Assembly: GCA_017561825.1 (NCBI GenBank)
Contig: JAFZBK010000042.1
Location: 74,524 to 107,922 of the forward strand
Source: Prevotella sp.
GTDB taxonomy: Bacteria > Bacteroidota > Bacteroidia > Bacteroidales > Bacteroidaceae
Length of the DNA stretch: 33,399 nt
Reading direction: 5' to 3'
The position numbers and the translations under genes are program-made. This document shows positions 5,917 through 31,530 of this stretch, piece by piece. How positions within the stretch are numbered: the first letter of the stretch is position 1; every line of letters begins with the position of its first letter. The notes below the pieces were generated by a model. It saw nothing but the letters and a program-made list of their open reading frames with translations, made no database searches and had not been told where the DNA came from.

Positions 5917-6022
5917 ACCGAACAGTTGAACAGTTTCTGTGTGCGAGCTGAAAAAATTATAATATATATATTATCTCCTATTGCTGTCCTCTTGAAAAAA
6001 CTGTTCGAACTGTTCGTTCGGT
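5917..6022. repeat. inverted arrays of AACAGTT-type repeats around an AT-rich core
   Basis: The left arm at 5917-5936 holds two direct copies of AACAGTT (AACAGTTGAACAGTTT). The right arm at 5998-6022 holds their reverse complement (AAACTGTTCGAACTGTTCG and onward), with one extra base between copies. The 61 bp between the arms include an almost pure A/T stretch at 5951-5975. The element lies 145 bp upstream of the RAYT gene within a 472-bp gene-free interval (5773-6244). Confidence 0.75.
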
Positions 6023-27254: not shown

Positions 27255-28427
27255 TCAATATGACCTGCAGATCCACATTTTAAGGAAACGGTCGGATACG
27301 TTATATAGTTTTGTGCGTCCATCATTCTGGTAGGTCAGAAGTTGTTTGTCCAATAGGGCGCTAATGGCATACTGGACGGAACTGGGTGATTTGAGTGCAT
27401 GCTTCTTGACAAAAGCGACCGAAGTGACACCGCTGGCCTTACCTTCCTTGGCAATGGCTATCAGCGTCTCCTTTTGCTGGTAGTTAAGCTGGTTCATCAC
27501 TGAGGCAAACGAGCGGCCTTTCTCCTCCAGAATGTCACTGAGCGTCTTGCTGATATCTGCTTCGTCTATGGTTTTATCAGCATCAATATATGCGAAAGCA
27601 TTGTGGAGCACGTTGTGAACATAGTAGGTGTGTCCTTCGAAAAGGTCGTAGGCAAAGGATGCAGCTTCGGGGGTAATGTTGCGCGAGGCTTTGGTGAACT
27701 GTTCTGCAACAAAGGCTGTATAAACGTCCTTCGAGATGCAGTCCAGATAGATTTGCTCCGCACTGTTGTAGAAAGGCTTAGCGGCAGAGTTGAACATATT
27801 CTCCAGAATATGGCGGTTGCTGCCGGCATAGATGAACAGACAGTTGTTCATTTTCTGTATATACGAGCGAAGCAGAGCCTCGACGTTCTTCTCTGGATAG
27901 TTGGCTATCTGTTGGAACTCGTCGATGGCGAAGATGCAAGGTTTGCCAGCATGTTCCAGATAACGGAAAATCTCTTCCAACGTAAGTTCTGGGGAGTGGA
28001 TGTCGCCGAGTTTGATATTGAACGTAGGCGTGTTGGAAACAGGATCGTAGCCGAAACTACCCGCCAAAGAGTGCAGACCTGCCAAGAACTTATTAAGCAC
28101 GGTTTTCCCTTTGGGTACCAATACGGAGTAGATTTCCTTGCCGAGAAACAAAACAAACTCGTGGAGGCTGGTAGTAGGATAGATATCCGTATAGAAAGTG
28201 TAACAGTTGTCTTTGATGGACGGCTGTTCGAAGACGTGGCGTATCAACTGCGTCTTGCCCATTCTTCGTGGCGAGGTTAACAGGATATGCGCCTTGTTTT
28301 CAAGGGTACGTACCATCCACGATGTTTCTTTCTCTCTATCGCAGAAATAGGGTTCCGGAATAATACCGGTGATGTAGAATGGATTCTTTGACCTATGGTC
28401 TAAGTGTGGTGTAACAATCTCCATCAT
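27255..28427 (-). CDS. AAA-type ATPase with C-terminal winged helix (archaeal-ATPase-like family)
   Basis: A 390-residue cytoplasmic protein. The P-loop is SPRRMGKT (52-59) and Walker B is IFAIDEFQQI (165-174), with YAGSNRH near 200-206. This is the STAND-like ATPase type (PF01637 group) common in Bacteroidales and archaea, usually of unknown client. The final 70 residues (about 320-390) look like a winged helix: YQQKETLIAIAK, then SPSSVQYAISALLDKQLL and YNVSDRFLKMW. The start is ATG ATG at 28427/28424; either may be used. It has its own promoter. Immediately upstream begins the large repeat region (28682-29110), but no direct link is shown. Members of this family are often scattered as isolated genes. 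Confidence 0.85.
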   Translation of the reverse strand: MMEIVTPHLDHRSKNPFYITGIIPEPYFCDREKETSWMVRTLENKAHILLTSPRRMGKTQLIRHVFEQPSIKDNCYTFYTDIYPTTSLHEFVLFLGKEIYSVLVPKGKTVLNKFLAGLHSLAGSFGYDPVSNTPTFNIKLGDIHSPELTLEEIFRYLEHAGKPCIFAIDEFQQIANYPEKNVEALLRSYIQKMNNCLFIYAGSNRHILENMFNSAAKPFYNSAEQIYLDCISKDVYTAFVAEQFTKASRNITPEAASFAYDLFEGHTYYVHNVLHNAFAYIDADKTIDEADISKTLSDILEEKGRSFASVMNQLNYQQKETLIAIAKEGKASGVTSVAFVKKHALKSPSSVQYAISALLDKQLLTYQNDGRTKLYNVSDRFLKMWICRSY

Positions 28428-28456
28428 AATAGTGCACTATTTTGTTATTATGGCTG

Positions 28457-28488
28457 CAAAGATAAGCAAAATATTCTAATTATGCAAA
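28457..28488 (-). promoter_or_regulatory. promoter of the AAA-type ATPase gene
   Basis: -33 TTTG (complement of 28485-28488), 20-bp spacer, -7 TATCTTTG (complement of 28457-28464), 29 bp before the ATG. Full consensus. Confidence 0.75.
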
Positions 28489-28820
28489 TTCTATTATAGA
28501 AACTCTATAAAACTATCAAAACTATCGAAAAAAAACGAACCTGGGCGCTATATGCTGAGTAATCATTTAGTTATATTCATGATGTTTGGGGTTAATAGTT
28601 TCGGTTTTTCTGCATTATTCTAGCATGTAAAAGCCAGAATGTACTGAATAAGTTGACAATTTTTCATCGCGACATCGAACAACATACACGATTATCGTTG
28701 GAAACGCTTTGAATAAAGGGGAAATGGCCATTTATAACATACACTCAACATACACAAACATACACTATTCGGGCACCAACATACACGCAAGATACACGCA
28801 AGATTCACAAACGAATATTT

Positions 28821-28908
28821 GTTCCCAACGTGGGAATAAATTGTTCCCAACGTGGGAATAAAAAGTTCCCAACGTGGGAATAAAAAGTTCCCAACGTGGG
28901 AATACTGA
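28821..28908. repeat. 22-bp tandem repeat, four copies, each with an inverted repeat
   Basis: Four copies of GTTCCCAACGTGGGAATA plus a 4-base A/T spacer start at 28821, 28843, 28865 and 28887, an exact 22-bp period. Each copy contains TTCCCA and TGGGAA separated by ACG, a small hairpin or a dyad binding site. The array lies in the centre of the octamer mirror. Confidence 0.92.
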
Positions 28909-28910
28909 GT

Positions 28911-28998
28911 AAGTGGCCTAGTTAGTGGTTGTAATCAGCCTAGTTTCTATGAGAAAGTGGCCTAGTTTCTATACGCAAGTAGCCTACTTAGCAGTGTA
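28911..28998. repeat. second 22-bp tandem repeat, four diverged copies
   Basis: Units start at 28911, 28933, 28955 and 28977, again an exact 22-bp period. The core is AAGTGGCCTAGTTTCTAT with changes between copies. It follows the first array with a 2-bp offset and overlaps the first GTGTATGT of the right flank. Confidence 0.85.
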
Positions 28999-29173
28999 TG
29001 TTGCGTGTATGTTCTTGGGGCTATAGTGTATGTTGGTGTATGTTTAGTGTATGTTGATTTATATAGGAAACCCTTTGTTTATCGTGCTTTTCGGCATTTT
29101 GCGTGTATGTTGCGCAAGTTTTTTGTAAACCAAACACGTAATTATACAAATTGGGTGATTCCAATACAAACTA

Positions 29174-29199
29174 TTGAGGTGCCAAATTTGGCACCTCAA
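29174..29199. terminator. perfect 26-bp palindrome downstream of the GLUG-like gene
   Basis: TTGAGGTGCCAAA (29174-29186) is followed directly by its reverse complement (29187-29199), 19 bp after the stop codon of the minus-strand gene. Flanking bases add partial pairing (AATACAAAC with GTTCGTATT). There is no U-run, so it is either a non-classical terminator or a protein-binding dyad. Confidence 0.55.
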
Positions 29200-29218
29200 G
29201 TTCGTATTATTAGCTTTA

Positions 29219-31093
29219 TCACTTCAAAATGATCTTCTTACCATCGCGGATATAAATACCCTTAGCTGTTGGCTTTCCACTCAACTTCCTACCGTCAATC
29301 GAATACCAACCTACATGGGCTTTATCATTTATCATTTGTCCATTATCATTTAGAGGCAGAGCCTCGCCAGTGGTGATTCCACTCTCAGATGCAAACAACT
29401 TCAGCATCGGGGTTGTTCCGTCTTGCACCCAGATCTCTTCATCACGACCGTTTTGCAAAGCGGTGGCAATAGTGCCGTTTGCAAGTTGTTCTGCTGTAGC
29501 CTGAGTGCCTTGTGCTTCACCAAACAGATTTAGATAATAACTGTTTGTAGGTGTTAATGAGCCATGTGTCCAATGATAAGAAAACGTTCCTGCCTGGTTT
29601 GTACTATTCGAAGTATCGCTCATCGTACCGATCTGCAGACAGTTAGTGATAGTGAGATTCCCATCATAACAGCCTACGAAACCCGACATAATCTTATCCG
29701 AAGATTCCCTTTTCAAACTACCATCGAAGAGACAGTCTGTCATGGAAAGATTAGACTCCCAGCCATGTTGTGCAACAATACCTCCAATATGGTTACCAGT
29801 ATTACTGCTATTTGTACATTCGATAGATACTGAACTATAACAATTCTGAATATAACTCCATGTTCCTGTACCCACAATGGAAGCAACAATACCTCCTAAT
29901 CCACTATTACCTCCAACAATACTTCCCTTGACATGAAGATTCTTGATTGTCGCACCATAAATATGACGGATAGGCGCAATGAAGGCTTCGTTAGACACAT
30001 AGTTGATGGTTAGCGTATGTCCATTACCATCAAACACACCTTTAAAGACAACATTATTGCCACCATACCTCTCATTATCAGTACCACTACCTATCATTGT
30101 TTGATCATCACCAAGATCAATATCCGCTGTCATCTTCGCATTAGCAGATGGGGTTGTCTCAACCAGGGCTGCAAAGTTATCCCAGTCTTGTACAGAACCC
30201 AACAGATAATAACCAGCGGCATCCTGCTTCAGAGAAGTAAACTGGTTTAGTACAGGTTGATTGGTAATGGGATCCAATACCCAACCATCACCAAGAAGAC
30301 TAACAATCTCTCCGTCGGTCATATTAGAGGCATTACTTATCCCATCCAAAGAAATACTCCCATGTTTATAATAGGAATTGGTTGTTGTTTCAGTGTTTTG
30401 TTTGTCAGTGCCCTCAAACATATAAGGACTAAATTCCGAAATATTTGTATATGTACCATTTTCTAAACAGTTTATAAAAACTGGAGTACTCTTCCCCCAA
30501 CCCCAGAAAGCAGATGCTTTGCCACGATTACCGCTTACGCCTGTAAATGACCCGATGAATAAACAGTTTCTCATCACAACTTCAGAGGGACCGCCGTATG
30601 CTATTGATCCCCCGTTGCCAACAAAGCCCGCAGCATAATCAGTGCTCATGTAGATGTTTGCTGCTACGATACAATTCTCGATGCTGATCTTACCATAAGC
30701 TCTTCCAATCAACCCAGACATATGTGTATATGATGAAGAAACTGTGCCTTCAACCTTTAGATTTTTGATGGTTCCTCCATTCACATAATGGAATGGTGCA
30801 GCAAACTGAGAACTACCTGTAATAGTGACATTAAGTGTATGTGTCTGTCCGTCAAACACACCTGCATATTTCTTGCTTTCACTACCAATCATCGTTGATA
30901 CCGCTATATCTGCCGTCAACTTTGCATTGGCCGTTGGTGCTATAGTACCACAATTGATGCTAGACGCAAAGGCGTTCCAATCATCGGTAGTACCAATCAG
31001 GTAAGTACCATCAGTATCCTGATCTATTGCCCATGCGCCCACTGAGATTACTGAGAAAAGCAATATGCTGAGAAATCGTTTTAAAATATTCAT
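29219..31093 (-). CDS. secreted GLUG-like repeat protein with Por/T9SS-type C-terminal tail
   Basis: A 624-residue exported protein with a signal peptide (1-22, ending AWA). The body is an internal duplication: residues about 26-285 and 291-565 share YLIGTTDDWNAFA / YLLGSVQDWDNFA, KLTADIAV / KMTADIDL, GVFDGQTHTLNV / GVFDGNGHTLTI and GTIKNLKVEG / ATIKNLHVKG. This is a beta-helix-type pattern with GLUG-like motifs, as in adhesins and surface proteins. The tail (594-624; VGWYSIDGRKLSGKP, KGIYIRDGKKIILK) resembles the short sorting tail of Prevotella type IX cargo. A heptad repeat encodes residues about 581-592 just before the tail. The gene looks more AT-rich than its neighbours and is flanked on both sides by repeat clusters. 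No enzyme motif is visible. Confidence 0.82.
   Translation of the reverse strand: MNILKRFLSILLFSVISVGAWAIDQDTDGTYLIGTTDDWNAFASSINCGTIAPTANAKLTADIAVSTMIGSESKKYAGVFDGQTHTLNVTITGSSQFAAPFHYVNGGTIKNLKVEGTVSSSYTHMSGLIGRAYGKISIENCIVAANIYMSTDYAAGFVGNGGSIAYGGPSEVVMRNCLFIGSFTGVSGNRGKASAFWGWGKSTPVFINCLENGTYTNISEFSPYMFEGTDKQNTETTTNSYYKHGSISLDGISNASNMTDGEIVSLLGDGWVLDPITNQPVLNQFTSLKQDAAGYYLLGSVQDWDNFAALVETTPSANAKMTADIDLGDDQTMIGSGTDNERYGGNNVVFKGVFDGNGHTLTINYVSNEAFIAPIRHIYGATIKNLHVKGSIVGGNSGLGGIVASIVGTGTWSYIQNCYSSVSIECTNSSNTGNHIGGIVAQHGWESNLSMTDCLFDGSLKRESSDKIMSGFVGCYDGNLTITNCLQIGTMSDTSNSTNQAGTFSYHWTHGSLTPTNSYYLNLFGEAQGTQATAEQLANGTIATALQNGRDEEIWVQDGTTPMLKLFASESGITTGEALPLNDNGQMINDKAHVGWYSIDGRKLSGKPTAKGIYIRDGKKIILK
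29321..29355. repeat. heptad tandem repeat in coding sequence (TTTATCA x5)
   Basis: Five 7-bp units, TTTATCA, TTTATCA, TTTGTCC, ATTATCA and TTTAGAG, are translated on the minus strand as LNDNGQMINDKA, the linker before the sorting tail. The unit is the same word as in the array at 14525-14552. Confidence 0.8.
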
Positions 31094-31337: not shown

Positions 31338-31530
31338 GTCCCATTGTCCCAACGTCCCACCGTCCCATTAAGGTGGTTTTCATGTGGTGAAAGGACAAAG
31401 GGATAATAAATTATAGGTATATTATAATTATATTATATATATAATATCAATATTATATATAAATATAACCATTCTAGTCTGCATATTGGAAGGTGCTTAA
31501 TGGGACGTTGGGACAATGGGACAATGGGAC
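31338..31530. repeat. inverted arrays of four GTCCCANN octamers around an AT-rich core
   Basis: The left arm (31338-31369) holds four head-to-tail octamers, GTCCCATT, GTCCCAAC, GTCCCACC and GTCCCATT. The right arm (31499-31530) holds four in inverse orientation, AATGGGAC, GTTGGGAC, AATGGGAC and AATGGGAC. A 24-bp stretch (31336-31359) is perfectly repeated in inverse at 31501-31524. Between the arms, about 31400-31470 is nearly pure A/T with small palindromes. The interval 31094-31685 has no gene. Confidence 0.9.

Follow-up and report, generated by a model that had tools for sequence, protein, structure and literature searches.

Mirrored octamer arrays in Prevotella and their association with VapE-type primase-helicase genes

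Phage P4 alpha, with its octamer repeats (alpha/ori-crr), is a system comparable to the one described here. The SaPI Rep-origin modules of Staphylococcus likewise place a helicase initiator (with a primase in SaPI5 Rep) beside short repeats; according to an excerpt of PMC7581432, the C-terminal domain of SaPI Rep helicases recognises origins built of such repeats, the helicases appear to bind as two hexamers, and the C-terminal domain of the related Cch2 (SCCmec) binds repeats of this kind. Iteron plasmid origins also consist of short repeated words at 10–11 bp steps. Among dispersed non-coding repeats, the BrickBuilt MITEs of Porphyromonas gingivalis, another member of the Bacteroidales, comprise about 20 intergenic copies with a 23-nt tandem array between leader and tail and short IS5-like terminal inverted repeats (PMC4596501, in excerpt). 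PINSR, a 188-bp repeat of Prevotella intermedia and P. nigrescens, is lineage-restricted, dispersed and intergenic, with most sites common to strains; the portion of PMC4755523 that describes it gives 177–184 copies and no terminal inverted repeats.

The Prevotella array analysed here differs from each of these. SaPI origins lie downstream of rep, whereas the arrays reported below lie upstream of their gene (downstream, 0 of 10 array-type genes score 3) and have long mirror-symmetric arms, a palindromic core and scattered gene-less copies. Unlike iteron plasmid origins, which sit on a plasmid beside a rep gene, it has two opposed arms and multiple chromosomal copies, with no plasmid match and no VapE match in the window. 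In place of the short BrickBuilt termini there are arms of about 120 bp made of a repeated word, and the identity of the word tracks with a primase-helicase gene; PINSR is set apart by its lack of terminal inverted repeats and its copy number. In the literature searched we found no paper linking Prevotella VapE genes with mirrored arrays, which does not prove that none exists. The array is best read as belonging to the SaPI/P4-like initiator-iteron kind, and as new in its dispersed, multi-word lifestyle.

Anatomy of the array

The window, meaning the whole 33,399-nt stretch of DNA analysed, comes from a 2.98 Mb assembly in 69 contigs that is 88% complete. A sequence-only reading had described 11 octamers in a mirror array enclosing two 22-bp arrays, with matching inward steps, and mapping of exact octamers confirmed this arrangement. 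The five exact ACATACAC of the left arm are spaced 55-11-10-21 inward, and the six exact GTGTATGT of the right arm 56-11-10-21-11 inward from the outer end. The features, in order, are as follows.

27255..28427, minus strand: neighbouring AAA ATPase gene (ATPase_2/AAA_14), with the array 255 bp upstream of the start
28640..28658, plus strand: IS-end-like TGTACTGAATAAGTTGACA, 24 bp outside the left arm
28682..28808, plus strand: left arm, with exact ACATACAC at 28682, 28737, 28748, 28758 and 28779
28690..28736, no strand: left gap, from the outer octamer to the inner ones, 66% A+T (computed on 28691–28737)
28790 and 28801: degenerate left-arm octamers AGATACAC and AGATTCAC, respectively, after the exact copies
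28821..28903, no strand: core module A, four 22-bp units with palindrome TTCCCAACGTGGGAA
28906..28993, plus strand: core module B, four 22-bp units around GCCTAGTT/GCCTACTT
28994..29110, minus strand: right arm, with exact GTGTATGT at 28994, 29005, 29026, 29036, 29047 and 29103
29055..29102, no strand: right gap, from the inner octamers to the outer one, 63% A+T (computed on 29056–29103)
29219..31093, minus strand: neighbouring ORF of 624 aa, its end 109 bp from the array

Within the core, the palindrome TTCCCANNNTGGGAA starts at 28822, 28844, 28866 and 28888, and the second 22-bp word (GCCTAGTT/GCCTACTT) at 28915, 28937, 28959 and 28981. The inner arms (28736–28797 and 28994–29055) are 84% complementary across 62 nt. 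Because of this symmetry, the segment 28670–29120 folds as single-stranded DNA much better than its own shuffles (z −12). The suggestion that bound protein would line one face of the helix holds for the inner sites, which are one or two helical turns apart. It fails for the outer octamer, which at 55/56 bp lies about 5.3 turns away (10.5 bp per turn) and is therefore offset by roughly a quarter to a third of a turn.

The ATPase gene and the 624-aa ORF, which had no match in Pfam or NCBIfam, are not thought to be part of the element. A search of 28400–29300 against Rfam gave no match. The IS-end-like TGTACTGAATAAGTTGACA also adjoins a second copy of the array, on contig C62 (recorded at L017:6477).

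Dispersed copies and their conservation

The octamer pair ACATACACN3ACATACAC gave 24 matches on 10 contigs of the same genome, and its reversed control gave none, which exceeds chance. As far as contig ends permit, these ten loci have a common anatomy; one (C54) is cut, and the contig ends at two others (C24 and C43). Of 398 genus genomes, 6, counting the window's own, contain a close variant of the pair. Genomes with octamers include G118, G228, G315 and G285, the last with the mirror plan and arms of 55-11-11. A third variant of the pair retrieved 24 stretches from GTDB r220 contigs (9 in RUG047, 11 in RGIG9694 and one each in Tb.RUG.501, RUG11690, RUG152 and Actinotignum), and several Prevotella MAGs from the rumen contain the pair. 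The most frequent arm pattern is 56-11-10-21-11, including forms that lack a site or have an extra one; the RUG152 stretch carries a tandem array on one side only, and no array was found in that of Actinotignum. Viral contigs contained no match to the octamer pair, and the complete window element matched nothing in a phage collection or in 72,556 plasmid records. On the latter result we rejected the idea that it is a plasmid relic.

Eight pairs of loci have common flanks. Their comparison left out L055 (Actinotignum) and L062 (the one-sided tandem array), and L072 had no cluster. In five close orthologous pairs the arms are largely kept and the distance between them shifts by 21 bp (L057/L074), 21 bp (L058/L066), 45 bp (L059/L070), 0 bp (L064/L076) and 43 bp (L067/L071), so that core length varies by 0–45 bp, mostly in steps near 22. 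A further pair (L056/L065) is truncated, and the C57 locus of the window's genome shares only one flank with L058 and L066 and has different arms. Octamer spacing in orthologous intergenic regions had been proposed as a check on the sequence-only reading, and in these loci of other species arm spacing is largely conserved, with the core changing in steps near 22 bp. For the window locus itself, neither an orthologous nor an empty site appears among the matches listed for 7 genomes, where its two flanks do not occur together.

The core modules have a wider distribution than the octamers. The core palindrome has 59 paired sites in the genome, at many loci without octamers, and module B is likewise found elsewhere without them; many intergenic sites (L027–L046) carry one or both of the 22-bp modules TTCCCANNNTGGGAA and GCCTAGTT. 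A word-free scan for inverted arrays covered 334 kb of loci from the same genome, nearly all picked for holding repeats and some overlapping, and gave 19 inverted arrays after removal of duplicates, against 1 in the same-orientation control and 0 in shuffled sequence. The same scan of an unselected 400 kb yielded 2 inverted, 2 direct and 0 shuffled, from which we take arrays to be sparse outside the chosen loci. Only one of those two inverted arrays has the anatomy described above: L231:12660-13053, on contig C45, a mirrored CCCTACT array with inner AATTCTC..GAGAATT-like palindromes, on a contig without a VapE match.

Arrays upstream of VapE-type primase-helicase genes

At locus L070 an array lies directly upstream of an intact 705-aa gene, whose product has the Pfam domains BT4734-like_N, VapE-like_dom, DUF5906 and DUF3874; its orthologue L059 likewise has an array directly upstream of the gene. 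One arm type leads into a promoter-like TGTACCTTTG and then the start codon, and one arm type has an outer site that overlaps the promoter-like box. Contigs C24 and C43 of the window's genome stop a few codons into such a gene, and C7 and C27 start inside one, with 95–96% identity to L070; we infer that C24/C43 join C7/C27. When C7 is compared with C27/L070, matching ceases no more than 3 bases past the stop codon. Two of the ten octamer (family-1) copies in this genome are gene-linked, judged from contig ends, as are 2 of the 24 GTDB r220 stretches. The eight remaining family-1 copies, the window copy included, have no VapE match on their contig. C54 and C62, and the family-2 copy C59 (see below), lie at contig ends, so that a gene may follow past the end of the contig. 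The window had been described as having no replication gene nearby, which is borne out for the window itself (no VapE-type match by tblastn) but not for the sister copies L070 and L059. A candidate initiator with a VapE/D5-like AAA+ helicase and a primase accompanies the linked copies, as in SaPI/P4-type systems, and is absent from the window copy.

The helicase part is related in sequence to 7pds, annotated 'Similar to D. nodosus vapE' (E 6.9e-14), and in PADLOC the primase part matches CRISPR-associated PrimPol and a DRT-associated model. A profile of the C-terminal part found no relevant solved structure in the PDB. A single VapE protein had no match in viral contigs; an alignment of VapE proteins found five relatives there, at 32–35% identity, and the two with upstream sequence had no array. 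Next to the genes inspected we saw no integrase and no packaging or phage genes.

A full-length gene on contig C61 is 72% identical and is preceded by a different word, CTACATG, in mirrored arms around two AATTCTCTAGAGAATT palindromes. For this reason we extended the comparison to 30 PF08800 genes of the genus, of which L143 was dropped because its upstream sequence was too short. An array was scored as present if the mirrored 8-mer score was at least 3 within 800 bp upstream. Short iteron-like words adjoin the gene in 12 of the 15 that score at least 111 bits against PF08800, as mirrored upstream arrays (shuffle fraction at most 0.025), and in 0 of the 14 lower-scoring ones. The three array-less genes of the top-scoring group are L127, L130 and L132; upstream of L127 lies what we take to be a group II intron end. 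Among 136 control ORFs of at least 200 aa, 18 scored at least 3, and 11 of these are VapE genes and 2 share a neighbour's array. The non-VapE background is thus 5 of 123 ORFs, a set that excludes the two sharing a neighbour's array and retains unannotated ORFs as well as the short VapE-like genes on C8 and C29; three of the five stand at two further mirrored arrays of the window. In other genera, 1 of 20 PF08800 loci scores 4, with an A+T-rich word. Of 13 array-linked genes, 12 have TAnnTTTG, the Bacteroidota −7 box, no more than 150 bp from the start, against 3 of 17 others. PF08800 genes are present in 27 of 40 genus genomes.

The word varies from gene to gene: AACATACAC, AACTACATG/A, CCTACATG, ACTGACAT, AACCACCA, TCACCCAA and CCTTCACA. 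For AACATACAC, CTACATG and ACTGACAT, gene-less solo copies occur in a genome that also carries a gene with the same word. In the window's genome the CTACATG pair was matched 12 times, on 9 contigs; the C61 copy is linked, and the other eight, without a VapE match, mostly have common ends, C59 being cut by the contig end. Genome G007 has a gene-linked ACTGACAT array on C47 and a solo one on C15, where the 3 kb examined contain no VapE gene; the word is absent from G018, G020 and G048. ACCTAAC forms a single arm upstream of a shorter VapE-like gene on C8, with gene-less copies on C28, C58 and C13; no array accompanies the shorter VapE-like genes on C29 and C13. Four further mirrored words of this 88% complete assembly (GAACAGTT, GTCCCA, CCCACCT and CCCTACT) have no known cognate gene. 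P0001 and L160, which share a word, agree at 0.71 in the C-terminal part, compared with 0.23–0.48 for P0001 and others. Over all pairs, word similarity correlates with protein similarity about equally for every domain (Spearman 0.68–0.76), so that no single reading domain is singled out, and common descent alone could explain the correlation.

A candidate initiator site and alternative readings

Since some of its sister copies directly precede a primase-helicase gene, we read the window array as a stray copy of a start site: probably a solo, gene-less copy of an origin-like iteron array that is cognate to an initiator and forms the cis site of a one-gene replication module. The sequence-only reading had likened the 22-bp repeats to iterons of a replication origin. 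That lead gains strength for the octamers, because octamer-type words accompany the replication gene and change between vapE genes. It does not carry over to the 22-bp core repeats, which we rejected as iterons: they are widespread without octamers and are replaced by AATTCTCTAGAGAATT palindromes in other arrays. The other suggestion, of a mobile-element relic, may be partly right, as copies are dispersed, none of the 14 solo copies tested lies inside an ORF of at least 150 aa, and most lack the gene.

Where array and gene are linked, the site stands immediately before the promoter of the BT4734-like (PrimPol-type)/VapE helicase/DUF3874 gene. Each mirrored arm might gather helicase subunits through its word, acting as the iteron, and two hexamers would then be loaded facing each other around the core, a step that the mirror-image arms fit but which says nothing of how copies spread. 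The A+T-rich gap or the palindromic core could be opened and primed by the primase domain, and the promoter-adjacent sites would also allow the protein to regulate its own gene. Since words are specific to gene subtypes, a solo copy would respond to its cognate protein alone, and could be either a non-autonomous passenger or else an origin that is fired in trans. A bolder proposal, which we put forward tentatively, is a new kind of selfish element consisting of a single primase-helicase gene and a mirrored iteron array, with no transposase yet seen. Its array would spread without the gene and be fireable in trans, and mutually exclusive word families would coexist in one genome, like orthogonal origin-initiator pairs.

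The association ties a subfamily of the common and mostly unexplained PF08800 genes to a precise DNA site, and provides about ten natural gene-word pairs for direct study of origin recognition by VapE-type helicases. Should the solo copies fire, such a chromosome would contain dozens of extra, dormant origins; otherwise they represent an unusual route for the spread of non-coding repeats.

The copies are dispersed, short, non-coding and intergenic with inverted ends, as expected of MITEs, and the arms could instead be multi-site transposon ends for a transposase supplied elsewhere, with the core as cargo and vapE picked up by some copies. We consider this unlikely, even though gene-less copies with inverted arms are spread over 10 contigs (14 of 14 tested outside ORFs), family-2 copies have common ends, the boundary of a family-1 unit that carries vapE falls no more than 3 bases from the stop codon (C7 compared with C27/L070), IS-end-like sequence adjoins two copies, and BrickBuilt MITEs also contain 23-bp tandem arrays (PMC4596501, in excerpt). 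Many unrelated words upstream of one gene subfamily would not be expected from chance pick-up; moreover, the flanks inspected by eye showed no recognisable target duplication, and a non-systematic look met no transposase with these ends.

Sites for autoregulation or global regulation with no role in replication, to which VapE or an unlinked regulator binds, would account for linked arrays that end at a TAnnTTTG promoter-like box, in one arm type overlapped by the outer site, and for a window copy 255 bp upstream of the ATPase gene, if solo copies control their neighbours. Two-arm symmetry with a long palindromic core nevertheless exceeds the needs of an operator, the neighbours of solo copies vary and some copies lie between gene ends, which makes this reading quite improbable. 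That tandem repeats of 11 and 22 bp came to be inverted by chance, without function, is very improbable: core length and single arm sites do vary near 22 and 11 bp between orthologues and the genome abounds in 22-bp repeats, but slippage alone was rejected on the arm spacing conserved between species and the excess of inverted arrays in the chosen loci (19 to 1 to 0, against 2, 2 and 0 in the random sample).

The window is unusually rich in arrays, with three. A second mirrored array at 31339–31528 has four GTCCCA, an A+T-rich centre and four TGGGAC, with no VapE gene in the window. A small one at 5920–6016, between two divergent ORFs, has two GAACAGTT and two AACTGTTC around an A+T-rich centre. 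Elsewhere, a mirrored AACCCACC AACCCACC ... GGTGGGTTGGTGGGTT repeat is found at L016, L010 and L034, and adjoins the octamer array in L010 and L016. Another tandem repeat of 22 bp, CAATACCTATGxTTTxAGxCTC-like, is frequent immediately beyond one type of arm, at L011, L012, L013 and L152 and in the flanks of several GTDB loci.
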